Origin: Microbacterium sp. Marseille-Q6648
GTDB taxonomy: Bacteria > Actinomycetota > Actinomycetes > Actinomycetales > Microbacteriaceae
DNA length: 64,000 nucleotides
Direction: 5' to 3'
Assembly: GCF_943181415.1 (NCBI RefSeq)
Contig: NZ_CALPBZ010000001.1
Span: 1,240,001 to 1,304,000, forward strand
In this document: positions 4,743 through 62,462 of the stretch, in pieces
Layout: each line of letters opens with the position of its first letter
Numbering within the stretch: the first letter of the stretch is position 1
Position numbers and translations under genes: made by a program
Notes under the pieces: generated by a model
What the model was told of the DNA's origin: nothing
The model's input: the letters and a program-made list of their open reading frames with translations, nothing else
Databases searched by the model: none

Positions 4743-6218
4743 TCACGCGGTGAGTTCGAGCCTCTCGGCCGTTTCGACGAGGGCCTGCTGCGCGGCATCC
4801 GGTCGCGGGTTGAGCGTGTCGCCGTAGCTGGGGATCAGCTCGCGCAGGCGCGGCTCCCACTCCTGGACGCGGTCGGGGAAGCACGTCTTCAGCAGACCGA
4901 GCATGATCGACACCGCCGTCGACGCGCCGGGCGATGCGCCCAACAGGCCGGCGATCGTCCCGTCGGCGCTCGTGACGACCTCGGTGCCGAACTGCAGCAC
5001 GCCGCCCTTGTCGGGGTCCTTCTTCATCACCTGCGCGCGCTGGCCGGCGTTGAGGAGCTCCCAGTCCTCGTCCTTGGCCGTCGGCATGAAGGTGCGGAGG
5101 CTGTCGACCTTCTGCTTGTGCCCCTTGAGCAGTTCGCCCACGAGGTACTTGATGAGACCCGGGTTGTCGATGGCGACCTTGATCATGGGCCACAGGTTGC
5201 CCGGGCGAACCTGGGCGACGATGTCGAGCATCGAGCCGTTCTTGAGGAACTTCGGACTGAACGTCGCGAACGGTCCGAACAGCAGCGACGCTTCGCCATC
5301 GACCACCCGGGTGTCCAGGTGGGGCACCGACATCGGCGGCGCACCCACCGACGCCTGCGAGTAGACCTTCGCCTTGTGCTGCGCGACGATGGCCGGGTTG
5401 GAGGTCTTCAGCCACTGCCCGCCGATCGGGAACACCCCGTAACCGTCGATCTCGGGGATGCCGGAGCGCTGCAGCAGCTTGATGGCCCACCCGCCGGCAC
5501 CCACGAACACGAAGCGCGCGCGGATGCTGCCGGGGGTGCGGCCGATCGAGTCGCGCCAGCGCACCTCCCACGTGCCGTCGGAGCGCTTCTTGAGGCGCTT
5601 CACCTCGCGGTTGGTGATGACCTCGGCGCCCGTGGCCTCGAGGTGCGCGAACAGCTGCCGCGTGAGAGCCCCGAAGTCGACGTCAGTGCCGGCGGGCACG
5701 CGCGTGGCCGCGAACGGCTCATCCGCCTTCCGGCGCTTCTTCATGAGCAGCGGCGCCCACTGGTGGATGACCCGCGAGTCCTCGCTGTACTCGATCCCCG
5801 CGAACAGCGGCTCTTTCTTGAGCGCCTCGTAGCGCTTCTTGAGGTAGGCGACGTCCTTCTCGCCACGCACGAACGTCATGTGCGGCGTGGAGTTGATGAA
5901 GGTCGAGGGGGCGTCGAGGACGCCTTCGGCGACCAGCGACGACCAGAGCTGGCGGCTCTGCTGGAACTGCTCGTTGATCGAGATCGCCTTCGCGGGATCG
6001 ACCGATCCGTCCTTGCCCTCGGGCATGTAGTTCAGCTCGCACAGGGCGGCGTGACCGGTGCCGGCGTTGTTCCACGCGTTGGAGCTCTCGAGTGCGACGT
6101 CGCTCAGTCGTTCGTAGACGACGATCTTCCAGTCGGGCTGAAGTTCACTGATGAGGGTACCCAGGGTGGCGCTCATGATGCCGCCACCGATGAGTACGAC
6201 GTCGACGGGTTCTGTCAC
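4743..6218 (-). CDS. mqo: malate:quinone oxidoreductase
   Basis: A 491-residue peripheral membrane flavoprotein that oxidises malate to oxaloacetate and passes electrons to the quinone pool. The N-terminal FAD-binding motif is VVLIGGGIMSATLG. The family-specific stretches ESSNAWNNAGTGHAALCELNY and GASPGASTAVSIML near the C-terminus are present. Length matches the family (about 490-500). It follows asd by 9 bases and may be co-transcribed with lysC-asd, which supplies aspartate-derived amino acids from the same oxaloacetate node (inference). Confidence 0.95.
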   Translation of the reverse strand: MTEPVDVVLIGGGIMSATLGTLISELQPDWKIVVYERLSDVALESSNAWNNAGTGHAALCELNYMPEGKDGSVDPAKAISINEQFQQSRQLWSSLVAEGVLDAPSTFINSTPHMTFVRGEKDVAYLKKRYEALKKEPLFAGIEYSEDSRVIHQWAPLLMKKRRKADEPFAATRVPAGTDVDFGALTRQLFAHLEATGAEVITNREVKRLKKRSDGTWEVRWRDSIGRTPGSIRARFVFVGAGGWAIKLLQRSGIPEIDGYGVFPIGGQWLKTSNPAIVAQHKAKVYSQASVGAPPMSVPHLDTRVVDGEASLLFGPFATFSPKFLKNGSMLDIVAQVRPGNLWPMIKVAIDNPGLIKYLVGELLKGHKQKVDSLRTFMPTAKDEDWELLNAGQRAQVMKKDPDKGGVLQFGTEVVTSADGTIAGLLGASPGASTAVSIMLGLLKTCFPDRVQEWEPRLRELIPSYGDTLNPRPDAAQQALVETAERLELTA

Positions 6219-32670: not shown

Positions 32671-32755
32671 GGAGGATTCGCCTAGTGGCCTATGGCGCAC
32701 GCTTGGAAAGCGTGTTGGGTGCAAGCCCTCAGGGGTTCGAATCCCCTATCCTCCG
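32671..32755 (+). tRNA. tRNA-Ser (anticodon GGA), island integration target
   Basis: 85 bases with acceptor arms GGAGGAT (32671-32677) and ATCCTCC (32748-32754). The anticodon GGA sits in the loop between CACGCTT and AAGCGTG. The long variable arm expected of tRNA-Ser and the T-loop TTCGAAT are present. CCA is not encoded. Its last 21 bases are the left half of the island attachment repeat, so the tRNA stays intact after integration. Confidence 0.95.
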
Positions 32756-32756
32756 C
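32735..32756. repeat. attL core (tRNA-Ser 3' end)
   Basis: 22 bases identical to 62441-62462, starting in the T-loop of tRNA-Ser and running one base past the discriminator. See the island entry. Confidence 0.88.
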
Positions 32757-33054: not shown

Positions 33055-33687
33055 TTATCTCGGTAGCTCTCCGACGATTCGCGTCTTGACTTCTTGACAG
33101 ATCGATTCGAGCGCGCGGTGGTCGAGCCGTGCGAAGGGAAGTCGCCATCCTTCCAAGGTGGGGGCGAACGGAATCCACACCGGTTGACCCTCAGCATCAT
33201 GGACAGTGAGGGCGATGACCGTTATCGGCCGATTGACGGTTGCCACCCCGAGGTCGACCTGCATCACGCGTGCTGCGTCCAACTCGAATACGCGCACGGG
33301 GGCTTCGCTGCCTTTCCAGAGCGAGATGCCCGCCTCGTCGACCACGATGACGCCGTAGTCGCCCAGCCGCCGTCTCTTGAGGCCGAGCCACCTCAGCGAG
33401 TCGACCAATTCCTGCGGATGAAGCACTGGCAGGACGAGCGAATCGGGGAAGAGGTTTCGCAGGGCGTGCAAGCGTCGCCGTTGCGGCCTGACCGAGAAAG
33501 CAATCGCCACGGTGATCGCGATCAGCAACCCTCCGATGATGACGACCGTCATGGGAACCGCCGCGTCACCCAGGGTGCTGGCGCGCGACGCAGCCAGCGT
33601 GATCTGCAGGATCACAAAGCCCCCGAAACCTGCCGCGGCTGCGATCCACAGCCCCCGACGGCCCGTCGCGCTATCGTCTGAGCTCAC
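33055..33687 (-). CDS. small membrane protein with cytoplasmic PH-like domain, unknown
   Basis: 210 residues: two N-terminal hydrophobic helices (LWIAAAAGFGGFVILQITLA and VPMTVVIIGGLLIAITVAIAF), then a soluble domain of about 130 residues. The order of beta strands (YGVIVVDEAGISLW, PITVIALTV, WIPFAP) looks PH-like or YcxB-like. Function unknown. It overlaps the integrase stop by 4 bases (ATGA), so it is co-transcribed with int at the left island end. Confidence 0.65.
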   Translation of the reverse strand: MSSDDSATGRRGLWIAAAAGFGGFVILQITLAASRASTLGDAAVPMTVVIIGGLLIAITVAIAFSVRPQRRRLHALRNLFPDSLVLPVLHPQELVDSLRWLGLKRRRLGDYGVIVVDEAGISLWKGSEAPVRVFELDAARVMQVDLGVATVNRPITVIALTVHDAEGQPVWIPFAPTLEGWRLPFARLDHRALESICQEVKTRIVGELPR

Positions 33688-34904
33688 ACGAGCTCCACAG
33701 CCTGCGGCCCAAGAAGCTGGCCAACGAGGTCTGCGGCGCCCCTCTGGAGCGTCCTCACGGCGTGTGAGTACGTGTTCAGCGTCGTCTGGATGTCGGCATG
33801 ACCGAGCCGCTCAGACACGATCTTTGGGTGCACACCGGCCCGCAGGAGCAGTGTGGCGTGGGTATGCCGCAGCTCGTGCAGGTGTAGCTCGTCCAGATCC
33901 GGGTGAGCGGCCACCGCCTTGAGGACGCGCTCACGCCACTGTCGCGAGAACTGTGTCGGGTTGTGCGGCTGGCCGTACCGGTTGCAGAAGATGAGGTGCT
34001 CGCCGCGGGCCAGCTCCGGCGAGACAGCACGGAGCATGTCGCGCTTTGCCCGGAACGCTCCCGCAAGGCGCACGTCGATGTCGACATTTCGTACACGGCC
34101 GCTCTTGGTCGCCTTGAAGTCGATGATCGGCTTCTTGCCCGCCTCCTTGACGTACGACATCGCGCGCGCGATCGTGATGACGTTGTTCTCCAGGTCGAGG
34201 TCCTTCCACCTGATCGCCAGGATCTCCCCCCGCCGCATCCCCGTGCCCAGCAGGGTGAGCCACGCCAGCCACAGATAGTCCCCTGACGACTCCGACCAGT
34301 CGAGGAAGAGGCGGGCGTCCTCCGCGGACCAGGTCGCCATCTCAGGCGGGGCCGCCTCCAGCTTGGTGGGCGGAGAGGCACGCTTCGCGGGATTGAATCG
34401 GATGAGTCCGTCCTCGAGCGCGTGCTGCAGGACCTGCGAGATCAGCACGTGGATGTGACGCACCGTAGCTGCACCGAGCGGCTCGCCCACGTGTCCACGG
34501 TCTTTCCGCCCGTTTGCCTCGAGCTGTCGATAGAAGCGATTCAGCTGATCCTTCGAGATAGCAGCGATCGGCGTGCGCCCGACAGTTGACGGAAAAACGT
34601 GCACGCGAAAATGCTTGCGGTATCCAGCGAGGGTCGTAGGTCTCACGCGCAGAGAATCGAAGTACTTCTCTGCGTAGCCGTTCAGGCTCTCACGTGTCTC
34701 TTCAACGTGGTCGCCTCGGCGGATGTCTACTTGCACTTCGGTGAGCGCATTGAGAGCCTCGCGCTCCGTTGAAAAACCCCGTCGGAAGCGGCGGGAGGCA
34801 TCGCCGTCCGCGCGATCCACCCAGTACGCGATCCGGTACTTCGTCTCGCCCGTCGTCGTCACATACGACGAGACCGTTCCATCCTGATTAGACCGGCGAG
34901 ACAC
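33684..34904 (-). CDS. int: tyrosine-type site-specific integrase
   Basis: A 406-residue phage-type integrase. An N-terminal AP2-like arm-binding domain (about residues 1-60) and a SAM-like core-binding domain (about 65-170) are followed by the catalytic domain. Catalytic residues are Arg in LLGTGMRRGEILAIRW, His-x-x-Arg in HELRHTHATLLL, His in SERLGHADIQTTLNTYSH and the nucleophilic Tyr in NTYSH. It lies about 1 kb from tRNA-Ser and should catalyse integration at, and excision from, the tRNA 3' end. Confidence 0.95.
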   Translation of the reverse strand: MSRRSNQDGTVSSYVTTTGETKYRIAYWVDRADGDASRRFRRGFSTEREALNALTEVQVDIRRGDHVEETRESLNGYAEKYFDSLRVRPTTLAGYRKHFRVHVFPSTVGRTPIAAISKDQLNRFYRQLEANGRKDRGHVGEPLGAATVRHIHVLISQVLQHALEDGLIRFNPAKRASPPTKLEAAPPEMATWSAEDARLFLDWSESSGDYLWLAWLTLLGTGMRRGEILAIRWKDLDLENNVITIARAMSYVKEAGKKPIIDFKATKSGRVRNVDIDVRLAGAFRAKRDMLRAVSPELARGEHLIFCNRYGQPHNPTQFSRQWRERVLKAVAAHPDLDELHLHELRHTHATLLLRAGVHPKIVSERLGHADIQTTLNTYSHAVRTLQRGAADLVGQLLGPQAVELV

Positions 34905-36506: not shown

Positions 36507-37718
36507 TCAGCGCTGCTTCATCGCCGCAGCGATCCGACTGTCGAGGTCCTCAAGCTCCGCCATCAGATCGCTGGCCGCCCAGACCCGGTCCCGTTTGCGG
36601 CCAGTTATCTCCTGGATGATGCCCGCCTCCTCAAGGCGGGTTAGCGCCGCGTAGAGCTTCGGCGAGGCGGGGCCCGCGGTCCGCTCCACGTCTGCGATGC
36701 TCATGACCGGGTTGTCGAAGAAGGCCGGGATGAGTGCAGCCGCCGTTGAACCTCGGCGCACGTCAGCTTGCTCGATCCATTGCTGCGGGAATTGCTTGAT
36801 CCGCTGCACCGACACCCTGCCCTCCTCGGCAGCAGCGACCGCCGAACGAAGCATCAGCTCGAGCAACGGCCGGACATTACCAACCCGGTAGCTGCCCAGC
36901 GCGTAGAAGTAGTCGTCTCGCCTGGCGAGCAGGCCGCTCGCGACGGGCACGACCGTATGGGGTGTGACGCCTCGCCGGCGGAGGATCGCTCCGATGAGAG
37001 CTCGACCGGTGCGGCCGTTGCCGTCACCGAAGGGGTGGATCGACTCGAATTGCGCGTGGGCGATCGTCGCCTGCGCCATGGTCGGCAGGTCATCCCGGTT
37101 CGCGAACGCGATCAGGTCGTCGAGCAGCTCGCTGACAAGAGCGGGACCGGGTGGAATGTACAGTGCGTTACGCGGGCTGTAGTCGCTGCCGCCGATCCAG
37201 TTCTGGCTGTCGCGGAGCTGACCGGCGTAGGGCCCTTCATGAAGGTCGTCGCGCATGAGCGCTTCGTGGGCGGTCAGGATGTCCGCTCGCTGAATGGTGC
37301 CGCGTGATCCCGCGGCCGCGACCATCGTGGAAAGTGCAGCGCTGGCCGCGACCATACTCACGGCCGAAGAGTTCGACTTTTGGCCGGCCAGCGCCCGCGC
37401 GAAGTCCGCGGTGCTCGCCGAGACGCGTTCGATCTTTGAGGACGCTACTGACTCGCTGCGGATCATGAAGCGCGCCATCGCCGCTGGCTGCCCGGTTGCC
37501 TCGCCGTCCATCGCCCCGAGCGCAACGAGCGCACGCTCGCCGAGCTGTGTGAGATCTGCAGGGACGACGTAGTCAAGGTCGGCGATCAGTGGAGGCAGCG
37601 AAGTCGCGACCTCGCTGAGCATCCGGTCCTCCCTGTTCCCGCCGCGACGCTCCTGGCGCCAGTGCACCACCTCGCTCCCGTGCGGCGGCCAGTGGCCACG
37701 CTCCCTCCCCACAACCAC
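36507..37718 (-). CDS. Fic family protein (class II, winged-helix C-terminus)
   Basis: A 403-residue putative AMP- or other nucleotidyl-transferase. The core motif is HPFGDGNGRTGR (about residues 226-237), giving the catalytic His and anion site. The N-terminal inhibitory helix is SSKIER (about residues 90-100), the (S/T)xxxE(G/N) position with Arg replacing Gly/Asn. A C-terminal winged helix (MSIADVERTAGPASPKLYAALTRLEEAGIIQ) is usual for this subclass. GTG at 37718 is chosen because GGGAGAGG lies seven bases upstream. A perfect inverted repeat directly upstream may be its operator. Confidence 0.85.
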   Translation of the reverse strand: MVVGRERGHWPPHGSEVVHWRQERRGGNREDRMLSEVATSLPPLIADLDYVVPADLTQLGERALVALGAMDGEATGQPAAMARFMIRSESVASSKIERVSASTADFARALAGQKSNSSAVSMVAASAALSTMVAAAGSRGTIQRADILTAHEALMRDDLHEGPYAGQLRDSQNWIGGSDYSPRNALYIPPGPALVSELLDDLIAFANRDDLPTMAQATIAHAQFESIHPFGDGNGRTGRALIGAILRRRGVTPHTVVPVASGLLARRDDYFYALGSYRVGNVRPLLELMLRSAVAAAEEGRVSVQRIKQFPQQWIEQADVRRGSTAAALIPAFFDNPVMSIADVERTAGPASPKLYAALTRLEEAGIIQEITGRKRDRVWAASDLMAELEDLDSRIAAAMKQR

Positions 37719-41799: not shown

Positions 41800-44541
41800 A
41801 TGCGGGGCGGGTTGGAGCGGTGGAAACGAGGGGCCGGATCGCGTGGGGTACGGCAGGCGATCGCGTACGCGCTCGAGGGAACCTGCGACTCACACGTTCG
41901 TCACTCCGCCGGGCTCGAGGCGTTTGAGGCGTACGGTGCGGCATCCGATTCGACCGTTCAGCGCTTCGTCGTCGAACACGGCGTCATCACGACCGACGAC
42001 CTCACCGCGGGTGGCCTGCGCGTCTGGCTCACCGGCCATGACCCGGTGAGCGGTGAGGACCGTGGCCGCCTGCGGCTCAGTCCCGACGCTGACCTGGTGC
42101 TCGACGGAACGATCAACCATCCGAAGTCCTTCAGCGTCGCCGCGTTGCTGCATCCGGAACTCGCCGCGGAGTTCGAGGCGCTGCAGGACCGGCTCCGGGA
42201 CCGCATCCTGGCCACCTGGCAGACCGAGCTCAACGCTCGCCGCGGACACGGCGGTGCCATCCGAGAGGACATCGCACGGCTCGAGGTCGTTGAACTGCAG
42301 CACCGTCGCTCACGGGCACTCGACCCACACGTCCACCGCCACCTGTGGCTCAACGTAAAGGTGCTGGGCGAGGACGGGAAGTGGTCGAATCTCGACTCTC
42401 GCGTCGCGATGAAACTGCACACCGTCGTCAACGCGGAGGGTGAACTCGCCTCCCGCACCGACCCCATGTGGCTCGCCGCTCTGGCCCGCCATGGTTACAC
42501 CCTCGATGGGGCGGGCGAGATCTCAGAACTTGCCGGCGCTGTACGGCCTCTGTCGCGTCGCTCCGCTCAGATCGAAGCGAACCGCGCCCGACTCGTCGAG
42601 GAATGGATCGCGGCCAACGCCGGCGCGTCCCCCAGCGTGGAGGTGCTGAACCAGATCGATCGACACGCGTGGGCACTGTCGCGCCCCAACAAGCCGACGG
42701 ATCTGGACGAGGCGGCGTGGGCATCGCGCGTGCGGGACGAGATCGCCACGATCGACCCGGAGCTGGTCGCGGACCGCGCACCCGTCTCGCTGCCCGCGAT
42801 GGGGATCGAGGCTCTCGATCCGGAGCTGCTCGCCGCGGCCGCGATCGTCGACGCTGACAAGCGTTCGGCGGCACGCGGCGGGCGGTTCAGCGCCTACGAC
42901 ATCCGGGCGGGAGCCATTCGCGCGCTCTCACGCACGGGTGTCGTCGCCGCGCGGCGTGAGCTCGACGAGGTGATCGAAGCCATTACCTCCAGGGCTCAGG
43001 AGCTTGCGACGAGGCTGGTCGCCGAGGCCACTCCCCCGCACGTCAAGGCGTTCATGGCCAACAACACCGTGCGGGACAAGATCCGACTGGGAAGCCGCCT
43101 CGACGCGCTCGCACAACCGGGCCGGTCGCTGCTTCCCCACGAACTACTCGCAGTCATGGCGGCAGAGCAGATCCCGCCGCTGGATCACTCCCAGGGAGTC
43201 GCCGCCTGCGCCATCGCCGGACTCGGTGGGCTCGTCACGGTGATCGGGCCCGCGGGTACGGGCAAGACGACCATGCTGCGTGCGGCGTCGCGAGCGTTGG
43301 CCGCGCAACAGCGGCGGATGCTGGTGGTCGCCCCTACCCGGAAGGCGGCATCCGTGGCCTCACGCGAAGTCGGGGCGGCGGCCTCCAGCATCCATGCCCT
43401 GCTCGCCGACCACGGATACCGGTGGGGCGCGGATGAGGCCGGGGCGACGGTGTGGACGCGGTTGCGAGTCGGCGACACGGACCACGCAACAGGCAAGGTC
43501 TACACCGGTCCGACTCGACACGCGCTGCGTCCTGGCGACCGGATCGTCGTCGACGAAGCCGGCATGGTGGATCTGCGAACCGCGAACCTCCTCACCGAGC
43601 TCGCGCTCGAGCTGCGCGCGGGCGTGGCGTTCGTCGGAGATCCCCATCAGGCACTCCCGGTCGGCCATGCAGGGGCGATGGCGTCCGCGATACGGCACGC
43701 CACAGCATCCGTCGAACTCGACACGGTGCACCGGTTCCGCGACCCGGACTACGCTGCGCTCACCCTGCGGCTGCGCCATGCCCGCGATCACGACGACGCA
43801 CTCGATGTCGCCAACGACCTCGCCGAGTCCGGTCATCTCGAACGGGCCGACCATCATGACGCCGCGCGGGAGCGCATGGTCGAGGCGTACTTCCACTGGC
43901 ACGCCCGCGGCCTTCGAGCAACCCTGGTGACCGGCACCAACGCCGAGGCCGACGCGATCAACGATGCTATTCAGCAGCGTCGCGTCGACCTGGGCGAGCT
44001 CGACCCCCGCACCGTCGCGTGGGGCATGGACGAGCAACGAATCCTCGTCGGCGACACCGTCCAAACCCGCCGCAACGACCAGCGAGCGGGCGTCGAGAAC
44101 CGCGCCCAGTGGATCGTGCGCGCCGTCCACGACCACGGCGTCGACCTCATGTCAACGACCGACAGCGGCGAATGGCGGCGCGTGACGACGGAGTATGCCC
44201 TCGAGCACCTGCAGCTTGCCTACGCCTCAACTGTCCATGGCGTGCAGGGCGAGACTGCCGACGCGTCGATCGTGGGGCCCGGTGTCGACGCCGCCGGACT
44301 CTACGTCGGACTCACCCGCGGACGCATGCACAACGTTGCGGTCGTCGTGGCCGGAACCGAGCCTGCCGCCCGGCTGAGGGCCGCAGAAACGATGCTGCGC
44401 GGCACACCCGAACTGACTCTGCAGGATGCCGTGCGTGCGGCCGAGGCGGAGTTGTGGCGTGCGGCACGCAGTCCCGCCCCGCCGAGCCAGACCGGGCCCG
44501 TCGTCGCGGCGCCAGCGCCAGCGGGTGGGGTGGGGATATAG
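41800..44541 (+). CDS. MobF-family relaxase with RecD-like helicase
   Basis: A 913-residue protein. The N-terminal TrwC-type relaxase has TINHPKSFSVAALL (about 105-117) and the metal-binding histidine triad HVHRH (177-181) within DPHVHRHLWLNVKV. From about residue 470 comes a superfamily 1 helicase: Walker A GPAGTGKTT (about 483-491), VVDEAGMVD (Walker B), FVGDPHQALPVGHAGAM, VELDTVHRF, and a C-terminal YASTVHGVQGETADASIV with YVGLTRGR. The first residues contain only Y23 and Y45 as candidates for the nicking tyrosine, and the usual leading YYL-type motif is not evident. It mobilises the island by nicking and unwinding oriT. Confidence 0.88.
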   Translation: MRGGLERWKRGAGSRGVRQAIAYALEGTCDSHVRHSAGLEAFEAYGAASDSTVQRFVVEHGVITTDDLTAGGLRVWLTGHDPVSGEDRGRLRLSPDADLVLDGTINHPKSFSVAALLHPELAAEFEALQDRLRDRILATWQTELNARRGHGGAIREDIARLEVVELQHRRSRALDPHVHRHLWLNVKVLGEDGKWSNLDSRVAMKLHTVVNAEGELASRTDPMWLAALARHGYTLDGAGEISELAGAVRPLSRRSAQIEANRARLVEEWIAANAGASPSVEVLNQIDRHAWALSRPNKPTDLDEAAWASRVRDEIATIDPELVADRAPVSLPAMGIEALDPELLAAAAIVDADKRSAARGGRFSAYDIRAGAIRALSRTGVVAARRELDEVIEAITSRAQELATRLVAEATPPHVKAFMANNTVRDKIRLGSRLDALAQPGRSLLPHELLAVMAAEQIPPLDHSQGVAACAIAGLGGLVTVIGPAGTGKTTMLRAASRALAAQQRRMLVVAPTRKAASVASREVGAAASSIHALLADHGYRWGADEAGATVWTRLRVGDTDHATGKVYTGPTRHALRPGDRIVVDEAGMVDLRTANLLTELALELRAGVAFVGDPHQALPVGHAGAMASAIRHATASVELDTVHRFRDPDYAALTLRLRHARDHDDALDVANDLAESGHLERADHHDAARERMVEAYFHWHARGLRATLVTGTNAEADAINDAIQQRRVDLGELDPRTVAWGMDEQRILVGDTVQTRRNDQRAGVENRAQWIVRAVHDHGVDLMSTTDSGEWRRVTTEYALEHLQLAYASTVHGVQGETADASIVGPGVDAAGLYVGLTRGRMHNVAVVVAGTEPAARLRAAETMLRGTPELTLQDAVRAAEAELWRAARSPAPPSQTGPVVAAPAPAGGVGI

Positions 44542-50097: not shown

Positions 50098-50396
50098 GAC
50101 CTGAGGGTACCCGTTCTCGAGAACGATGCTGAAGCAACGCAAAGCGAGGTTGCGCGTGCGCAATCAACGACCCGCAATCGGGCTACTTCGGAGGGTAGTG
50201 CGCCGCGAATAACTCCGTTCGCCTCAGATCGCGCGGACGATTGCAGCTGCGGTGACTGAGGCACGTGACTACTTGCCACCGACGAACGAGTTGCCGCCCA
50301 GCCGCTTCCCCGCGATCGTCGACTTCCCACTCGATCTCAACCCCGGCTCGGAGTGCCCGTCGCCGCGCTCAGGGCGTGTGAAGTAGAGTGTGAAGC

Positions 50397-51176
50397 GTGA
50401 CCAACCGGAATGAATCACCCTCAGACGTCCCGGCCCTTCTCACGCAGGCACCGCTGGCCCGAGTCCTAGTTCAAGTTCGATGGCCCGAGCTATCGAGTTT
50501 TGACCTGGAGAGCGTCGCCACTGCGATGGCGCGCCAGCTCAGCGACTCATTTCCTCTGAAGCGTCGGGAGCCCGAAGTGCAGCTCGTCTTCACACCGGCT
50601 GGACCTCAGCAACAGGCCAACGGCTTTGTCCACAGGCTCACCTCGGCGGCTGACGATTGGACGATCTCGCTAGGTGCAAGCTTCATCGCGCTGGAGACGA
50701 GCGCCTATCAAGGACACGGTGCTTTTGTTGCTCGTCTGCGCAGTGCGCTATTAGCGCTCAACGAGTCGGCCAAGATTCCCGTAATCACGCGAATCGGATA
50801 CAGGTACACGAATCGAATTGTGGGCGCCGATGACCTTGCACGCTTGAGTGAGCGTTTTGCTCCGTCAGTGCTCGGCGGCTTGGGAGACGCACCCAAGGGC
50901 TCGGTCTTGGTGCATACCATCACGGAGTCCGTCTACCGCTTTGACAACACGTCGTTATTGGTTCGATCGGCGCAGGTGGGTGCTAATGAGTCGATAGACC
51001 CTACGTTGGCGCCGGTGAAAGAAATGAGCTGGATTCTGGATCTCGACGCATACGACGAGTCGAGAGTCGCGTTTGCCGTCGACTCGATTTGCGAACGCGC
51101 CGAGCATCTCTCAGGCATTGCCAGCGGCCAATTCCATGCGCTAACCACTGAAGAGTTCACGAAGAGGTATGCATGA
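50397..51176 (+). CDS. TIGR04255-family-like protein
   Basis: 259 residues, the size of the sporadically distributed TIGR04255 family. Matching features are the N-terminal PLARVLVQVRWPELSSFDLES and the central IPVITRIGYRYTNRIVG (R-x-G-x-R-Y-x-N-R), with a FVARLRSALLALNES helix. The family has no established biochemical role. GTG start (VTNRNESP). Its stop overlaps the next gene by 4 bases (ATGA), and that gene is followed after 9 bases by a third, so the three form one operon. Lower GC than the chromosome flanks. Confidence 0.75.
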   Translation: MTNRNESPSDVPALLTQAPLARVLVQVRWPELSSFDLESVATAMARQLSDSFPLKRREPEVQLVFTPAGPQQQANGFVHRLTSAADDWTISLGASFIALETSAYQGHGAFVARLRSALLALNESAKIPVITRIGYRYTNRIVGADDLARLSERFAPSVLGGLGDAPKGSVLVHTITESVYRFDNTSLLVRSAQVGANESIDPTLAPVKEMSWILDLDAYDESRVAFAVDSICERAEHLSGIASGQFHALTTEEFTKRYA

Positions 51177-51691
51177 ACGGGGTGGTCGAACTCAGTCCCC
51201 GCGTCTTCACGCTGTCAGCGATCGGGCTGACCGCTCTCGCCCTGTTGGGTACGTCAGTCCCAGTGGCGAGAGGGTCAGATTCGGTCGTTGTCCGACCCTT
51301 TCTCTCTCCCTCAGGCTCCTCGTCGAACGCCACCGACGGCATGATCGCGGCTAGCCAACCAGCTGAGACGGTTGCTGCAGTCGCGTCCTCATCACACGCT
51401 CAGCTCATCGCCGAGTTGCGAGCCAGCAGCTCATTCACCTGGGAGCAAACGGCGAAGCTGTTCGGCGTATCGCGTCGGACGGTGCATCTCTGGGCTGCCG
51501 GGGGCAACATGGCTTCCCAGAATGAGGAGCACCTGGCCGAGCTCCTTCGTGAGGTTCGTAGTATTCGAGCCGCTGGCGCGCCAGATGAGCGTCTACAACT
51601 GCTCGCGATGTTGGATCGCGAACGTTACGGTCGAGCGTCATCCGACGACGACATCAATCGCCCCGCATCCATCTACGCGGCGGGTGCCTGA
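51173..51691 (+). CDS. HTH protein with N-terminal hydrophobic segment
   Basis: 172 residues. A hydrophobic N-terminal helix (FTLSAIGLTALALLGTSVPVARG), possibly a membrane anchor or signal, is followed by a Ser-rich linker. A helix-turn-helix then reads FTWEQTAKLFGVSRRTVHLWAAGGNMASQNEEHLAELLREV, and a helical tail follows. A membrane or exported segment ahead of a DNA-binding-type HTH is unusual. The HTH may act as a protein-protein module. Middle gene of the operon with 50397 and 51701; overlaps the former by 4 bases. Confidence 0.65.
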   Translation: MNGVVELSPRVFTLSAIGLTALALLGTSVPVARGSDSVVVRPFLSPSGSSSNATDGMIAASQPAETVAAVASSSHAQLIAELRASSSFTWEQTAKLFGVSRRTVHLWAAGGNMASQNEEHLAELLREVRSIRAAGAPDERLQLLAMLDRERYGRASSDDDINRPASIYAAGA

Positions 51692-51700
51692 TCAGTACGC

Positions 51701-52570
51701 ATGGAAAGCAATCATTTTCGTCTGCTCCGCCAAGGGCACATACTCGATATCCACGAAGTCGCGGGGCTCAGCGGGAAGTATGTAATCGTTTCGCAGAGCT
51801 GTGACATCGTTCAACCCAAGCGCGAGTTCATCCAACTCGCGCCCGTCGTTCAGCTCTTGGACGAAGTAGTGCTCCGGGGAGCTCTGAAGAAGGAGAACCC
51901 CAGATTTGCTCTCGTACCTGCATCGGAGGGGGGTGCGTTTGCAGACCTCGCTCAGATCGTGTCCGTCCCAAAGAGCTACTTCGCTGCCACACTCGAGCCG
52001 GTCCGCCAAGGGCCGGAAGATTTGCGGGAGGCTCGAGAATTCGGCCTCGCAGTTGGACGCTGGTTCGGCCGCTTCGCCGTCCCGGATGAGGTTCAACCCT
52101 GGCTAGCGCCCGTTCAGAACCTAATTCGATCGAAGTATGACAACCCCAACAGTCCGCTGGGCCAGGTCATGCAGCGCGTAGCCGAGGTCCGTGTTGAGGC
52201 GGTGGACTGGAGCGTCCTGCCCGTGTCGCTCACCCTCCACGTGATTGTGAAGGCTGGTTGCCTCCCAACCGTCTCGGAGGATGCAGACCTGTCAAACGTG
52301 GGGAGGCTTCCGTCGCAGCTCGACGAGTTGTGCTCGGCGATTCTCGTCGAGAACGACGCTGTTCGGCTTGCGGTGCTGTGGCCAACCCTCGCTGAAGTCC
52401 TGGCATCGAGGTGCGTGCCCCGGGTCAAGGATGCCGAGGATGCTTCAGTCCGCGACGCCGTTCGGGAGATCGTTGGCGAGGTCAGTTCCGATGATGAGTT
52501 CCCGCTTTCGAAAGCTCGACGATCCGAGCAACTCGACATCGACTTCCTCTCGGAGCCAACGCCATATTGA
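51701..52570 (+). CDS. SQSCDIV-motif protein, unknown
   Basis: 289 residues, soluble. The N-terminal core GKYVIVSQSCDIVQPKREFIQLAPVV is a motif I associate with an uncharacterised, widely scattered family of S-Q-(S/T)-C-D-(I/L) proteins whose Cys may be catalytic or metal-binding. Then comes EFGLAVGRWFGRFAVPDEVQPWLAPVQNLIRSKY. The C-terminal half contains LTLHVIVKAGCLPTV and an acidic tail. It closes the operon with the TIGR04255-like and HTH genes, suggesting one functional unit. No similarity to known nucleases is visible. Confidence 0.65.
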   Translation: MESNHFRLLRQGHILDIHEVAGLSGKYVIVSQSCDIVQPKREFIQLAPVVQLLDEVVLRGALKKENPRFALVPASEGGAFADLAQIVSVPKSYFAATLEPVRQGPEDLREAREFGLAVGRWFGRFAVPDEVQPWLAPVQNLIRSKYDNPNSPLGQVMQRVAEVRVEAVDWSVLPVSLTLHVIVKAGCLPTVSEDADLSNVGRLPSQLDELCSAILVENDAVRLAVLWPTLAEVLASRCVPRVKDAEDASVRDAVREIVGEVSSDDEFPLSKARRSEQLDIDFLSEPTPY

Positions 52571-53075
52571 AAACCATTAGGTCTGCTGTGATCGCTCACG
52601 CCTCGTTCGCGGTCCGCGAGAAGCTCGATCAGGGATCGGCCTTGAACCCACTGCGGACGAGCTCTCCCACGAACTCCTGACGACGAGCGCGGCGACGGCT
52701 ACAACCAAGGCCGCAAGGTCTACTCAGGAGAACGCGGCGGTCATCGGCCAAGCGTAGTGATGTCACCTTCACCCCGCAGCGCACCCTCTGAGAGGCTCTG
52801 CGCGCCGTCGAGCTAGCCTTCCAGCCTCCCGCGTACGTGCCAGCCATGTTCCGTCAGGACCGACCGCAGCTCTGGTGATCCCCGCAGTCCGCGGTTGACC
52901 CGCGCGAAGCTGACAACGTGGTACTTGACGGTCTCTGGCACAGGTGGCTACGGAGCTGAGCGTCAACGAGAAAACCAAGCACTCACGATTATCAAACCTC
53001 GGCGTTGAGTTGCATTTACGGCGGCGGCTCATCGCGACTAGCGGAGTCCAGTGCATCACTCATTCGGGCTGACGA
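52571..53075. other. gene-free stretch between opposing operons
   Basis: About 500 bases between the rightward three-gene operon and the leftward zinc-ribbon operon. Short frames here have no RBS or recognisable domain. Possibly the eroded remains of a lost gene, as well as both operons' terminators. Confidence 0.4.
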
Positions 53076-54203
53076 CTACAGCGAGGCTTGCGCGCCTCCC
53101 ACGAACCTCCACGCCTGGGTCGACACCTCCGCGATCGCCTCGGACGGGCGTTCCAACAGCGAAGCGAGCGGCCGGTACCGCTGTACGAAGACTTCCGCGT
53201 TTTCGTCACGCCACCCCGCGACGGCATCGTTGAAGTCTCGGCGAATGACGGCAGAGACATTGGGCAGGTACTCGGTCGCTAGCCGCTCCTGAAGGTCGTG
53301 CCAGGTCCGGTAGTACTTCTGCTCGAGCTTGCCGATTCGTTTGGCAGCGCCGTCCGGATCAGGTCGCATTCCAAGAACCATCATCCGTTGGACGCGAGGT
53401 TCGATCGAGGAGAGCGCCTCCTCGGCGGTACGAAGCTTGCGGGTGGCGTTCCTCACGTCTTCGACGGTTGCTCGCACCGCCGCCGGCTGATCATCGGTGA
53501 TCACTTCTGACGTGGCGATGGGGATGGGGATGCACTGCACTGCGGCGATGGCGCTCGGCACCACGGCGAGAGACAACGTACCCATGGCTTCATGCACGTT
53601 GAGATAGCGAACTGCATCGAGTCCGGCATCACTGATCTCCGCCACGCTGATGTCCGACGCGACAGCGTGATTCTCGTCGCGGTAGCCGGCGCTAATGCGC
53701 CCCGGCGTGAGCCTAAGGGCGACGCGGTAAAGGTAGAACTGCTTCGTACCGTCGTTCTGGTACTCCATGCGGCGAAGCATGTTTTCGATCCCGGCCTCGT
53801 ATGTTCCGACATGCAACGCCTTGGACGTTTGCCGCGCGAGGTAGTTGTCTCGGCTGATGCCAAAATCGCGTTCGACCCACTTCAGCTGATTCTCGAACTG
53901 GGCCGCATAGTCCGGCGAGGGCCAATCGGGTGACGTGCTGGTGTGATACCAGGCGAAAGTAGAGACGAGATTGTCCTGGAGCGCCGGGTCGTTCTCCTCC
54001 CGCAGCGCGGCTACGGCCCGACCGAAGTGGATCTCCCTGCCACAATGCGCGCAGTTCATCCGCGCGCTCCGTGCCTCCGCGAGATAGTCGTCGGCCGCGA
54101 GCGCGGACGTCTCGCCGCACGCGCACCGCATCCGGTAGTCATAGTTGAAGCCGTCGGATCGCTCGGCGAGCTCGAACGTCAGGTAGGCCGGGTGCGCGCT
54201 CAT
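53076..54203 (-). CDS. zinc-ribbon protein, unknown, possible ART/RES-like domain
   Basis: 375 residues. The N-terminal C4 ribbon (CACGETSALAADDYLAEARSARMNCAHCG) is followed by a middle domain with FAWYHTSTSPDWPS, KALHVGTYEAGIENMLRRM and FYLYRVALRLTPG. A helical C-terminal half includes IGKLEQKYYRTWHDLQERLATEYLPNVSAVIRRDF. The YHTS and HVGTYEA segments with a following Y-R-V strand recall ADP-ribosyltransferase or RES-type folds, but this is only a motif impression. It overlaps the upstream gene by 4 bases (54200-54203), forming a two-gene operon. Confidence 0.6.
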   Translation of the reverse strand: MSAHPAYLTFELAERSDGFNYDYRMRCACGETSALAADDYLAEARSARMNCAHCGREIHFGRAVAALREENDPALQDNLVSTFAWYHTSTSPDWPSPDYAAQFENQLKWVERDFGISRDNYLARQTSKALHVGTYEAGIENMLRRMEYQNDGTKQFYLYRVALRLTPGRISAGYRDENHAVASDISVAEISDAGLDAVRYLNVHEAMGTLSLAVVPSAIAAVQCIPIPIATSEVITDDQPAAVRATVEDVRNATRKLRTAEEALSSIEPRVQRMMVLGMRPDPDGAAKRIGKLEQKYYRTWHDLQERLATEYLPNVSAVIRRDFNDAVAGWRDENAEVFVQRYRPLASLLERPSEAIAEVSTQAWRFVGGAQASL

Positions 54204-54744: not shown

Positions 54745-56898
54745 TTACGCCCTGTCGAGTTCGCTTGCGCGTCTCTCGTTTGTGCGGGCGATTATTTCGT
54801 CGGTGACGGACGGAGTCTCGGGGTCGTCGGTGAGATGAATGAGCCGAAGGTCGAGTTCTGGCTGCTCGACTGTTCCTCCAGATGCATAGACCTTCATGAG
54901 GGGAATCGCGCCGATGTCCATCGCTGACTTGACCAACTCGTGGAAGATCGCTGACTGAGGTTCCGGGAGGTATCCCGCGATGGTGCGTTCGCGACCTACC
55001 AAGAGATCTGCTCGCACTGCGTGGACGATGAGTGGGTGGTGGGGTTCGGCGACGAGTAGGGCCATGAGCTCCCCGTCTTCGGCCTCCTCCCACTTGTTGA
55101 GAGCGTCCCGCACCTTCGCCTGGTACTCGCGTGTGCGACTAAGTTGCATGTCGTCGCCACCGGTGAGTCCCATCGCCTGAGTTGGGACGATAGGTGCGTA
55201 CGCCCATTCACCGAAAGGTGCCATGGGCTCGCCCTGGAACTCGAACGCGTCGATCCGCGCGTCTATGCGATTGTCGTTCACAGGGGTGGTGTCCGTGGCG
55301 TGGGCTGCTGCGAAGGCGTCCCAGATCTCACTGGAGATCCGGCCGCGGACACCTACGGGGAACCCGTTGGCGAGTGCCCAGGTGCGCACGACACTGGGAG
55401 ATGCCGCGCTCGTTGATCGTTCCGTCTTGCGCGAGGGCGTCCCGGCTGCGGTGCCAGCAGGTCGAGTTGGCGCGGTGGTCCGCGGGCGGTCTTCGGCGGG
55501 GGCTGCGGGCTGAAGGTGTGCGAGGAGGGTTTCGAAGGTGTCGGGGTGAACGATTCGCGTCCCGACTTCTCGGGCCTTGGCGAGTTTCGTGCCGTCCATG
55601 CTCCCGTCCGTGACGAGCATGGATGTGAGCCTGGACACGTTGTTCATGACGCGAACGCCGAGTTCGGTGGCGCGACGTTCCAATCGGTCCCGCTGCCGGT
55701 CGTCGCAACCGGTGAAGGCGACCTTGTCGCCAACTCGCAGAGGCACCCCGAAGCTCCAGTCATCGGGGAGAGGGCGTAGCCCAGCGCTCATTCTCGCGGC
55801 ACGCGCCGAAGACGCGTGCGCGATCAACTCATTCACGGTTGCACGAGGCACGTCGAGCGCATCACACAGGGTATGCAGCTCCTCGCGCTCGTCTGCGGAG
55901 ACGTGGCCGTCGTCGACCGCCTTATGGGCGAGCGCAAGGATGAATGCCCGGTGGGCCGCGCGGAGGTCGGAATCGGTGAGTCGGTAGACACCGATCAGCT
56001 CACCCAGATCGCCGGCTTCCTCGTCGCTGATTTCACCGTCTTCAAGCGCGTCGAGAAGGGTCTCGAGGTACGCAAGCGTGCCCTCCGGCGCACCCTCCTC
56101 CACAGCCTCGAGAAGACTGACAGCGGTCATCTGCCGCAGTAGAGGCGGATGCTTTGGTTTGGCAGGAGTGATCCTTTTCGGACGATCCCGCGAACTGTCG
56201 GACCGGTCAAACAAGGCTGTGTCGGGGGCGCGTGAGGGACCAGCAGGCCACGTGACGCCACGGGCTTCGTTGCGGAGCGCGATCAGCGCTTGGCTCTGAC
56301 GGCGACCTGTCTGGGTGAGGTAGAAGCGAAGCAGCCCGGCCGTCGCACGTGCGTCGCCCAGCGCGGAGTGGGCATGCTCAAGAGGGACCCCCGCCGCCCA
56401 GCAACAATCGGCCAGCCGGCGCCGATCCAACTCGGGAAGATAGTCGCGACTGCCGTCCAGCGTGCAGAACGCCGGAAGCCACGGCGCATCCCAGCCCGCT
56501 CGTTGAAATTCCGCACGCAGGAACGCAAGGTCGAAGTTGGCGTTATGCGCCGCGATCGGCACGCCTGCGACGAAGGGAATCAGGTGCGGCGCGACGTCAC
56601 GAAAGACAGGCGCACCGGCGACGTCGTTGTGGGTGATGCCGTGGATGTGGGTCGCACCGACAGGACCTTCCGGATTGAACCGCGTCGACCACTCATCGAC
56701 AACCTGGCCCTCGCTGTCCACGCGGACCACCGCGAGCTCAACGATGCGGTCCTGGCGAGGCGAGAGCCCGGTCGTCTCCACATCGATAATCGCGAAATGC
56801 GGCACACCATTCTGCGGTGGATCCGCCAGCCGCGCGGGCGCGCTGGTAGTAGCCCCAGATGTCTCCCGCTTGCCGAACAACCAGTCGAACAACCCCAT
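54745..56898 (-). CDS. DEDDh exonuclease with TerB-like, BRCT and Lsr2-like modules
   Basis: A 717-residue multidomain nuclease. Residues about 33-195: DnaQ-like 3'-5' exonuclease (IIDVETTGL with D39/E41, HNANFD, and HSALGDARATAGL with the DEDDh His/Asp). About 255-370: helical TerB-like domain (LLDALEDGEISDEEAGDLGELI, HKAVDDGHVSADEREEL). About 385-465: BRCT-like domain (GDKVAFTGCDDRQRDRLERRATELGVRV, LVTDGSMDGTKLAKAREVGTRI). About 500-540: Lsr2-like DNA-binding fold (VVRTWALANGFPVGVRGRISSEIWDAFAAAH). The C-terminus has RTIAGYLPEPQSAIFHELV, possibly HIRAN-like. ATG 56898 has GAGGA upstream. Candidate DNA-repair or anti-invader nuclease of the island. Confidence 0.85.
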   Translation of the reverse strand: MGLFDWLFGKRETSGATTSAPARLADPPQNGVPHFAIIDVETTGLSPRQDRIVELAVVRVDSEGQVVDEWSTRFNPEGPVGATHIHGITHNDVAGAPVFRDVAPHLIPFVAGVPIAAHNANFDLAFLRAEFQRAGWDAPWLPAFCTLDGSRDYLPELDRRRLADCCWAAGVPLEHAHSALGDARATAGLLRFYLTQTGRRQSQALIALRNEARGVTWPAGPSRAPDTALFDRSDSSRDRPKRITPAKPKHPPLLRQMTAVSLLEAVEEGAPEGTLAYLETLLDALEDGEISDEEAGDLGELIGVYRLTDSDLRAAHRAFILALAHKAVDDGHVSADEREELHTLCDALDVPRATVNELIAHASSARAARMSAGLRPLPDDWSFGVPLRVGDKVAFTGCDDRQRDRLERRATELGVRVMNNVSRLTSMLVTDGSMDGTKLAKAREVGTRIVHPDTFETLLAHLQPAAPAEDRPRTTAPTRPAGTAAGTPSRKTERSTSAASPSVVRTWALANGFPVGVRGRISSEIWDAFAAAHATDTTPVNDNRIDARIDAFEFQGEPMAPFGEWAYAPIVPTQAMGLTGGDDMQLSRTREYQAKVRDALNKWEEAEDGELMALLVAEPHHPLIVHAVRADLLVGRERTIAGYLPEPQSAIFHELVKSAMDIGAIPLMKVYASGGTVEQPELDLRLIHLTDDPETPSVTDEIIARTNERRASELDRA

Positions 56899-60264: not shown

Positions 60265-61974
60265 CTACCGCAGAAGCTCGTCGCGTCGTTGACTCAGGGA
60301 GATCAGTTTCTGCTGCAGCGACGAGCGCTTCATCTCCATACTGCGAATCTTCGATTCGATCCGGTCGCGCGCTTCAGACTGTCTGCGGACAATGTCCCAG
60401 TAGTGCGGGTGAGTAAAGGACGGCTGGGGTCGCGTGCTTTGCTGCTGGAGTCGCGAGTATGAGCTTCGAATCGCGTCGTCGGTCCGCCAGATCGACTCGT
60501 TGGTGCGTCGAATCGCTTCCTCCACGTTCTGGATCTTCTCCCGTTTGCGCTGCTGCCACTCGGCTTGCTTGCGTTCTCGGTCACGGTTGATCGCGTCAAA
60601 TAGCGCTTGCTTCGCCGACGCGAACTGCTCCTTGAGGCGCTGGTTGTCTTCCCTTCCTGCTGAGCCCGCCGCGAAGAACGCGTCTGAGAGCGCACGCGCC
60701 TGGTCGCGAGCGCTCTTGAAGTCCGACGTGCTTCCCAGCGCTCGCATCTGCGCGATCAGACTCTCCTTGGCGCTCTTGGCTTGAGCGGCCTCGCGGTCGC
60801 GCTTGTCTCGTTCCGCTTTCGACTTGGCAAACAGAGCATCCTTCGCTTTCGAGAAGTCACGCCACAGGCGATCCTCGTCATCTCGGGACGCTCGACCAGC
60901 CTTCTTCCACTCCTCGGTCAGAGCCCGCATCTGCTGGCTAGCCTCGCGGAGGTCGGACGAGTGAACGAGACCCATCGCGCGCGAGACAATCCGCTCCTTC
61001 GTGGCTTTCGCTTGAGCAGCGTCGCGGTCGCGCTTGTCTCGTTCCGCTTTCGACTTGGCAAACAGAGCATCCTTCGCTTTCGAGAAGTCACGCCACAGGC
61101 GATCCTCGTCATCTCGGGACGCTCGACCAGCCTTCTTCCACTCCTCGGTCAGAGCCCGCATCTGCTGGCTAGCCTCGCGCAGGTCGGACGAGTGAACGAG
61201 ACCCATCGCGCGCGAGACAATCCGCTCCTTCGCAGCCTTGGCCTGACCCTGTGCATACTCGCGCTGCCGTCTCTCATCGTCACTCTTGGTTCTGAGTCGA
61301 GTCCTTGCGTCGTTGAACCGCTTCCAGAGACGATCCTCGACTTCGCGCGACGCTCGCGGAGCCGCCTTCCATTGGTCGCCGAGTTGCCGCATCTCCTGGC
61401 TCGCAGCACGGACGTCGCTCGACGTAGCAAGGTCCTCGGCACGCGAGACGATGCGCTCCTTCTCACGTTGCCCGATAGCTTCATTGCGCTCTCGTTCCTC
61501 ACGGTGACGCGTCTGTGCATCACGGAATTGGCTCTGCGCCGCGTTGAAGGAATCCCAGTAGCCATCCTTCTCCGCGCGAGACTTCACCGGACCGACGTTC
61601 TTCATCTGTTCGCGTAGTTCGCGGAGCCGTGCGTTTGTCGATCGCCAGTCCGTCGACGACCCCAAGGCACGAGCCTCGCTCACGATCCTCTGGAACGCCG
61701 CGGCGTTCGCCTGCCAGTCGTCTTCTACGCCCGGGTATAGACGCGGCCCTCGGCGCATGTCGTGATGTCCCGGCTGGCCATCCTCGCGGCGTTCGTAATA
61801 GTGCGCATGGTCTTCGTCGACCGTCTTGCTGCTCACATGTCCGGGCGCGACGAACCCTTCTCGTGGACGAGATGAGGTCTTATGAGTCACCCGCTGCCCG
61901 TGTTCGTCGAATCCCCAGATCAGTTTTCCCGAAGCATCATTTACGTCAGCTGGATCGCGTTCCCCATTCCCCAT
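60265..61974 (-). CDS. DUF349-repeat coiled-coil protein
   Basis: 569 residues, highly charged and helical. The first 90 residues form a distinct head (KLIWGFDEHGQRVTHKTSSRPREGFVAPGHVSS). Then five or so repeats of about 77 residues match DUF349 (R-A-x-x-L-x-x-S-S-D-x-R-x-A-S-Q-x-M-R-x-L-x-x-E-W-K-x-A-x-R-A-S-R, LWRDFSKAKDALF). A C-terminal coiled coil follows (RIESKIRSMEMKRSSLQQKLISLSQRRDELLR). Two internal repeats are nearly identical at the DNA level. DUF349 proteins are helical scaffolds of unknown function. Confidence 0.8.
   Translation of the reverse strand: MGNGERDPADVNDASGKLIWGFDEHGQRVTHKTSSRPREGFVAPGHVSSKTVDEDHAHYYERREDGQPGHHDMRRGPRLYPGVEDDWQANAAAFQRIVSEARALGSSTDWRSTNARLRELREQMKNVGPVKSRAEKDGYWDSFNAAQSQFRDAQTRHREERERNEAIGQREKERIVSRAEDLATSSDVRAASQEMRQLGDQWKAAPRASREVEDRLWKRFNDARTRLRTKSDDERRQREYAQGQAKAAKERIVSRAMGLVHSSDLREASQQMRALTEEWKKAGRASRDDEDRLWRDFSKAKDALFAKSKAERDKRDRDAAQAKATKERIVSRAMGLVHSSDLREASQQMRALTEEWKKAGRASRDDEDRLWRDFSKAKDALFAKSKAERDKRDREAAQAKSAKESLIAQMRALGSTSDFKSARDQARALSDAFFAAGSAGREDNQRLKEQFASAKQALFDAINRDRERKQAEWQQRKREKIQNVEEAIRRTNESIWRTDDAIRSSYSRLQQQSTRPQPSFTHPHYWDIVRRQSEARDRIESKIRSMEMKRSSLQQKLISLSQRRDELLR
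60791..61232 (-). repeat. 231-bp in-frame tandem duplication
   Basis: 60791-61001 and 61022-61232 are identical at 210 of 211 positions (one G/C difference near 60949), with a period of 231 bases, exactly 77 codons. The repeat encodes one extra DUF349 unit and is clearly recent. Confidence 0.92.
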
Positions 61975-62302: not shown

Positions 62303-62462
62303 GTGGCACAGTTAAGGCACATTTACTCGCGACACGCCGTGTTTTCGAAGGCAGATTCATGCAACTGTGCCGCGAGCGCGGGAGCTGAGAACGGCGGAAT
62401 TACGCGGCAAAACGGCCCATTCGTGCCTCAGAAAATGAGAGTTCGAATCCCCTATCCTCCGC
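62303..62462. repeat. attR region: candidate arm sites and att core
   Basis: GTGGCACAGTT at 62303-62313, an inverted near-copy (AACTGTGCCGC) at 62363-62373, then the 22-bp core at 62441-62462 identical to the tRNA-Ser 3' end. The tRNA's 5' part is absent here, so this is the right island end. The stretch 61975-62572 contains no convincing gene. Confidence 0.85.

Follow-up and report, generated by a model that had tools for sequence, protein, structure and literature searches.

A recurrent three-gene cassette of a TIGR04255 protein, a helix-turn-helix protein and a protein with a predicted MazF/CcdB fold, carried by a Microbacterium island, plasmids and viral contigs

The described systems closest to the locus examined here are CmdTAC and the SecB-type TAC systems, the toxins MazF/PemK (PF02452) and CcdB, antitoxins with an Xre-type helix-turn-helix (HTH), and the NCBIfam family TIGR04255, whose model name marks sporadic occurrence only and states no function. 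In CmdTAC, as described in PMC11618068, a phage capsid protein draws off the chaperone CmdC, a SecB homologue; degradation of CmdA follows, and the ADP-ribosyltransferase CmdT is released. We examined a 64,000-nucleotide stretch of the Microbacterium sp. Marseille-Q6648 genome (“the window”; contig NZ_CALPBZ010000001.1, positions 1,240,001 to 1,304,000), which carries a three-gene cassette, A-B-C. The cassette resembles CmdTAC in combining a putative effector (C), a small antitoxin-like protein (B) and a third, putative sensor or stabiliser (A); it differs in that C has a predicted MazF/CcdB fold, A belongs to TIGR04255, and the HTH protein is encoded by the middle gene. The genes had been annotated at first pass as tightly coupled, and they are: A and B overlap by 4 bases (ATGA), and a 9-base gap separates B from C.

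50397-51176, + strand: gene A, TIGR04255 family protein, 259 amino acids (aa), GTG start
51173-51691, + strand: gene B, HTH protein, 172 aa
51701-52570, + strand: gene C, 289 aa

We consider it an evenly balanced judgement that A-B-C is a mobile three-part module of toxin-antitoxin type, and propose C as the effector, B as autorepressor and antitoxin, and A as sensor or stabiliser. The features expected of a type II toxin-antitoxin locus that were observed are the gene coupling, an HTH in B (below cut-off) and a conserved repeat as putative operator.

Recurrence and co-divergence of the three genes

When genome contigs were scanned with C, relatives were found in Micrococcales bacterium KH10 (57% identity) and, at 50 and 49%, in two Brevibacterium genomes; in each the arrangement was A-B-C. 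The first-pass annotation had made its reading depend on the three families occurring together outside this strain, and this they do. Plasmid searches gave 9 records with the window A and 15 with an Acinetobacter A, together 19 different records, and in 17 of these the next two genes encode an HTH protein and a C protein with a [ST][QHR]xCD motif. The exceptions are a Thermus plasmid, where A is followed by one unassigned gene and a HEPN-like open reading frame (ORF), and a plasmid of Rhizobium CB3060, where A is found with two unassigned genes beside multiubiquitin and ThiF genes. A search with a motif-containing C pattern identified five distinct viral contigs, which we read from their genes as proviruses; four carry A-B-C and the fifth begins at B. 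Within a phylum-wide sample of 396 genomes, the C profile matched 16 and TIGR04255 matched 31, and A lay upstream of C, on the same strand and within about 1.3 kb, in 12 of the 16. The middle gene of these 12 pairs matched the B profile in six (the window, by construction, and L083, L084, L087, L100 and L102), and was HTH-like by eye in L090, L097 and L101. The A-B-C unit, carried on plasmids and in proviruses, occurs in four phyla: Actinomycetota, Pseudomonadota, Cyanobacteriota and Deinococcota. A search of 50,697 phage records matched neither A nor C; with A as query, a single-protein and a close-relative scan of viral contigs were both empty, and two further scans led back to viral contigs already identified; a cassette from Klebsiella found no match by distant blastn in 5,426 E. 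coli genomes, a weak test at this divergence.

The three proteins diverge together. For 26 complete cassettes, chosen as having all three genes and with some start codons set by hand, Mantel correlations were 0.738 (A with B), 0.867 (A with C) and 0.739 (B with C), compared with permuted maxima of 0.361, 0.274 and 0.293. An identical 4-base A/B overlap is present in 12 of the 26 (in L087 with the start of B set by hand).

On a Rhizobium plasmid (L155, 1177-5519) multiubiquitin, ThiF and DUF6527 genes lie just upstream of a TIGR04255 gene.

Conserved residues and predicted fold of C

Sequence searches gave C little family context. For the window C, Pfam and NCBIfam were empty up to E=10, and PADLOC and PHROGs up to E=1; among 13 C proteins there was no NCBIfam match, and PF02452 (PemK/MazF) was found in 0 of the 13 at E<=1. 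The one short PDB match by sequence (E=0.43) was taken as chance.

51704-52078, + strand: predicted MazF/CcdB-fold domain of C, residues 2-126
51791-51805, + strand: Ser-Gln-Ser-Cys-Asp motif of C, residues 31-35

The conserved Ser-Gln-Ser-Cys-Asp motif picked out at first pass holds up in an alignment of 31 C proteins, where Gln11, Gly12, Cys34 and Asp35 are identical in 31/31 and R124 is present in 29/31. The alignment excludes near-copies (L019, L156), fragments and others (L080, L089, L090, L092, L097, L110, L111, L157 and Meiothermus); as five of its members (L026-L030) were found via the motif-containing pattern, the motif is partly present by construction, and without them the count is 26/26.

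A structure prediction for C by AlphaFold2 (AF2) from nine sequences had a predicted local distance difference test score (pLDDT) of 82.5 and a predicted template modelling score (pTM) of 0.70. In a Foldseek comparison of this model with the PDB the leading matches were MazF, followed by CcdB (best E 4.5e-3, prob 1.00). The VIA-align comparison gave 50 rows with Z from 10.2 to 8.0, of which 40 were titled MazF or CcdB (for example, 103 residues superposed at 3.1 A on a chain of 110); the other 10 were titled toxin, endoribonuclease, mRNA interferase, YdcE or MoxT, and these we take to be MazF kin. The model therefore predicts a MazF/CcdB fold for residues 2-126, in agreement with MazF and with CcdB alike; the C-terminal extension, after residue 126, was barely covered by the fold comparison.

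Besides this fold, C shares with MazF/PemK and CcdB the position of its gene directly after a small DNA-binding gene. It differs in its length of 289 aa with the C-terminal extension, in lacking a PemK/MazF Pfam match and in being part of a three-gene unit. An Arg and a Thr have catalytic roles in MazF. As placed by sequence alignment, not by coordinates, the Arg position (before Pro) is R in 2/31 C proteins vs 18/20 MazF proteins of related genomes, and the Thr position (after Pro-x) is T in 2/31 vs 20/20; C has the invariant Gln-Gly and Cys-Asp instead. An identity of C as an ordinary MazF was rejected because these catalytic residues are mostly absent.

The upstream repeat and proteins A and B

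A tandem direct repeat stands immediately before A, where the window sequence just ahead of the GTG reads GTGTGAAGTAGAGTGTGAAGC.

50376-50395, + strand: tandem direct repeat GTGTGAAG-N4-GTGTGAAG, candidate operator (period-12 repeat, p=0.03)
50384-50389, + strand: TAGAGT, a -10-like hexamer within the repeat and seven bases ahead of the GTG
51401-51508, + strand: HTH region of B, about residues 77-112 with an SRRTVHLW core, from Pfam match positions and a conserved alignment block

Nineteen bp of this repeat are identical in loci L003, L004 and L005, where the DNA farther upstream aligns poorly and the A, B and C proteins are 34-65% identical to those of the window. In the 3.49-Mb genome the repeat occurs as a single copy at <=3 mismatches, in front of A. 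Variant repeats were seen as TGTGTAAT in Vibrio and Acinetobacter and as CTTCACAC, on the other strand, in viral contigs L027-L029. In a motif-blind test, direct repeats of period 10-13 reached p<=0.05 in 16/32 upstream regions vs 0/32 at periods 17-20; a related 6-mer pair spaced at 10-13 bp, from a 6-mer set chosen after inspection of the upstream regions, was present in 21/32 of them vs 0/5985 sequence windows elsewhere in the same loci. These tests used 32 of 35 upstream regions (L088, L093 and L100 were dropped); the 32 include the near-copy pairs L018/L019, L148/L149 and L147/L156, and some starts are simply the earliest start codon in the ORF. The distance between the repeats, about one helical turn, would fit side-by-side binding of an HTH protein.

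The repeat of L003, L004, L005, L012 and L022, like that of the window, contains a TANNNT hexamer seven bases ahead of the start codon. From its position the hexamer may represent a promoter giving a leaderless message, which would accord with actinobacterial practice. A consensus promoter scan gave no sigma-70-type site, and there was one terminator-like site (inside B) vs 2.4 in shuffles. In L093 the type III operon likewise shows, by eye, tandem repeats of GGGAA and of CTTCCCAT at similar spacing before A (upstream of 7295).

The window B matched HTH models of Pfam (PF13384 at E=1.5e-4; HTH_23, HTH_3 and related models); it is in this like the Xre-type antitoxins, yet all of these matches are under the curated cut-offs. 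A model for Xre-like HTH antitoxins was touched by 5/13 B proteins at E<=0.1, and with PADLOC 2.0.0 the window B matched only mad1 (E=0.011). The first-pass annotation had described a hydrophobic lead joined to the HTH, and this did not stand: the best 17-residue mean Kyte-Doolittle value of 1.89 in the window B was not above that of N-terminus shuffles (p=0.22). Such a lead was also rejected as a defining feature of B, since a value >=1.6 was found in 11/29 B proteins and only 1/29 beat its own shuffles (p 0.05).

The assignment of A to TIGR04255, by comparison, was confirmed at 123.3 bits (cut-off 30; E=1.4e-35). Its predicted structure (AF2) is an alpha/beta fold with pLDDT 84.6 and pTM 0.81, and R132, G134, R136, Y137, R190, D215 and D217 are invariant in 13/13 A proteins. 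The one short PDB match by sequence (E=0.42) was taken as chance, and PADLOC 2.0.0 gave no match for the window A and none for 13 A proteins at E<=0.01. The proposal of an identified fold family for A was rejected after structure comparison.

A was also seen without a C of the present type: with an HTH protein and an “HPC” protein (L085, L086, L099), with an HTH protein and an “SHDC” protein (L088, L093), with a “GWNGYD”-type protein (L077, L104, L014), with small proteins (L094, L096), and followed by an unassigned gene and then a protein that is HEPN-like by eye (L078 6429-6812, L098 6160-6540, L151 at about 5300-5700), for which Pfam reported HEPN only in L098, at E=0.048 and under the cut-off. 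Several loci had no clear partner (e.g., L079, L081, L091). Profile comparison links the HPC type to C with a score of 43.8 (shuffles averaged 11.4 and reached 20.2 at most); for the SHDC type the link is weak (20.4 vs a shuffle maximum of 18.6). The Cys is aligned in both. Since A is found with these different partner sets, it looks like a hub with exchangeable effectors. More tentatively, and with less confidence than we place in the A-B-C module itself, TIGR04255 could be the common hub of modular mobile immune or addiction systems, in which an HTH repressor is joined to MazF/CcdB-fold effectors rebuilt around an invariant Cys (the SQ-x-CD, HPC and SHDC types; the fold would gain a new chemistry), with the effector swapped for a HEPN-like protein in other lineages. 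The exchangeable partners of A, like the candidate operator and the predicted fold of C, were not foreseen at first pass.

Of the three loci with A and a HEPN-like protein, one belongs to a Thermus plasmid and has cas6 and VapC close by.

Proposed mechanism, alternatives and the host island

We suggest the following course of events for the toxin-antitoxin-like module. B would bind the tandem repeat before A and shut the operon off, a role suggested by the conservation of the repeat and by the lack of any other HTH gene in the unit. C would be the effector, its site built on Gln-Gly and Cys-Asp and not on the Arg and Thr of MazF, and B would keep C inactive, as gene order and co-divergence suggest. 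A, because it recurs with different partner genes, may sense or stabilise the B-C pair, perhaps acting as CmdC does for CmdA-CmdT in CmdTAC. Phage or other trouble that removed A or B would release C, so that the cell or the invader would be stopped; on plasmids and proviruses the module would protect its carrier or keep the carrier in the host.

Several results weigh against this interpretation. C occurred without A in 4 of the 16 C-matching genomes of the phylum sample (G408, G220, G355 and G439, the last a 66-residue match), neither A nor an HTH gene could be seen around a full-length C relative with the motif SQDCD (L109, 6768-7679), and the partial C match on a Rhizobium acidisoli plasmid lacks an annotated A in its vicinity; C need not, then, always have partners. 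The middle gene was without a visible HTH in 3 of the 12 pairs (L080, L089, L092), the exact repeat pattern was absent from 11/32 upstream regions, and the co-divergence may in part follow host relationships. Foldseek of C against the PDB gave no match under E 0.001. An end-to-end profile alignment of C with 20 MazF proteins scored 15.4, compared with 10.1 for shuffles (sd 2.0, maximum 16.5, n=100); as this is under the largest shuffle, the alignment is suggestive only, and sequence by itself is no proof of a relation of C to MazF. The catalytic Arg and Thr of MazF are each missing in 29/31 C proteins. No SecB-type chaperone was among the fold matches listed for A, absence from that list being no proof.

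The same parts and wiring could instead have been selected because they keep the carrier in the cell, as an addiction module of plasmids or prophages that plays no part against phage; we regard this as rather unlikely, though the best of the alternatives. It draws on the presence of A on 19 plasmids (17 with A-B-C) and of C on five viral contigs, and on a fold family that includes the addiction toxins CcdB and MazF, whereas the copies in two Brevibacterium genomes (L004, L005) are on contigs beside genes that look ordinary by eye, the copy in L012 adjoins a type I restriction gene, and the copy here is in a 29.7-kb island. Addiction and defence are not mutually exclusive. The first-pass annotation had offered an anti-phage, anti-plasmid or maintenance system, which has partial support: the location of the cassette as cargo of plasmids, proviruses and islands fits a defence or maintenance role, as do the type I restriction (L012) and SoFic neighbours; no PADLOC 2.0.0 model covers A. 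A somewhat less probable alternative is a non-toxic regulatory module, with B as repressor, C sensing redox state or a ligand via its Cys and A as their partner, which together would control the genes of the element. The MazF catalytic residues mostly missing from C, the invariance of its Cys and the solitary C relative in L109 would all suit such a regulator; against it, the repeat is found once in the genome, only before A, leaving B without an evident other target, and the cassette is found in many unrelated elements. It is improbable, to our mind, that A is instead an enzyme (guanidino-kinase-like or of other catalytic type) which modifies a target under the control of B and C. Fold and gene order would also suit a toxin-antitoxin pair of the classical, RNA-cutting MazEF type to which one gene has been added, but the counts of Arg and Thr above and the lack of a PemK/MazF Pfam match to C make this very improbable.

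If the toxin-antitoxin-like interpretation of A-B-C is correct, a function and mechanism would be provided for TIGR04255, a family named only for sporadic occurrence, and a widespread branch of the MazF/CcdB toxin fold would be seen to lack, for the most part, the known catalytic residues. Searches of open PubMed Central papers, which took in no preprints, gave no mention of TIGR04255 and no description of a three-gene MazF-like anti-phage unit; A, a clear member of the family, now has a genetic setting that recurs and partners of several types. The unit, found in four phyla with a recognisable candidate operator, is directly testable in laboratory strains.

The first-pass annotation had placed the cassette within a mobile island bearing Fic and nuclease genes, and these elements are present: the island, 29.7 kb in length, is bounded by an exact 22-bp repeat, the two copies of which enclose genes for a tyrosine integrase and a TrwC relaxase.

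32735-32756, + strand: attL-like copy of the 22-bp repeat, at the 3' end of tRNA-Ser
33684-34904, - strand: tyrosine integrase of the island (Phage_integrase, E=1.4e-25)
36507-37718, inside the island: Fic protein (PADLOC SoFic model, E=4e-64)
41800-44541, + strand: TrwC relaxase/helicase of the island (TrwC, E=4.6e-29)
54745-56898, strand opposite to the operon and downstream of it: DEDDh exonuclease with BRCT and Lsr2-like domains (PADLOC candidate PDC-S48, E=9.8e-136)
62441-62462, + strand: attR-like copy of the 22-bp repeat

C was present in only 2/198 relatives, i.e., the window's own genome and G155, which belongs to the same taxonomic order, and for this reason the cassette is probably a recent arrival. 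In G155 a type I restriction gene flanks the cassette on one side and a match to PADLOC candidate PDC-S01 on the other. The G+C content is 60% at the operon vs 67-73% over the first 32 kb of the window. A plasmid search with 15 kb of the island gave no near match, and Rfam over 50100-53100 gave nothing at gathering scores. A DUF349 protein is encoded at 60265-61974, within the island and to the left of the attR-like repeat.
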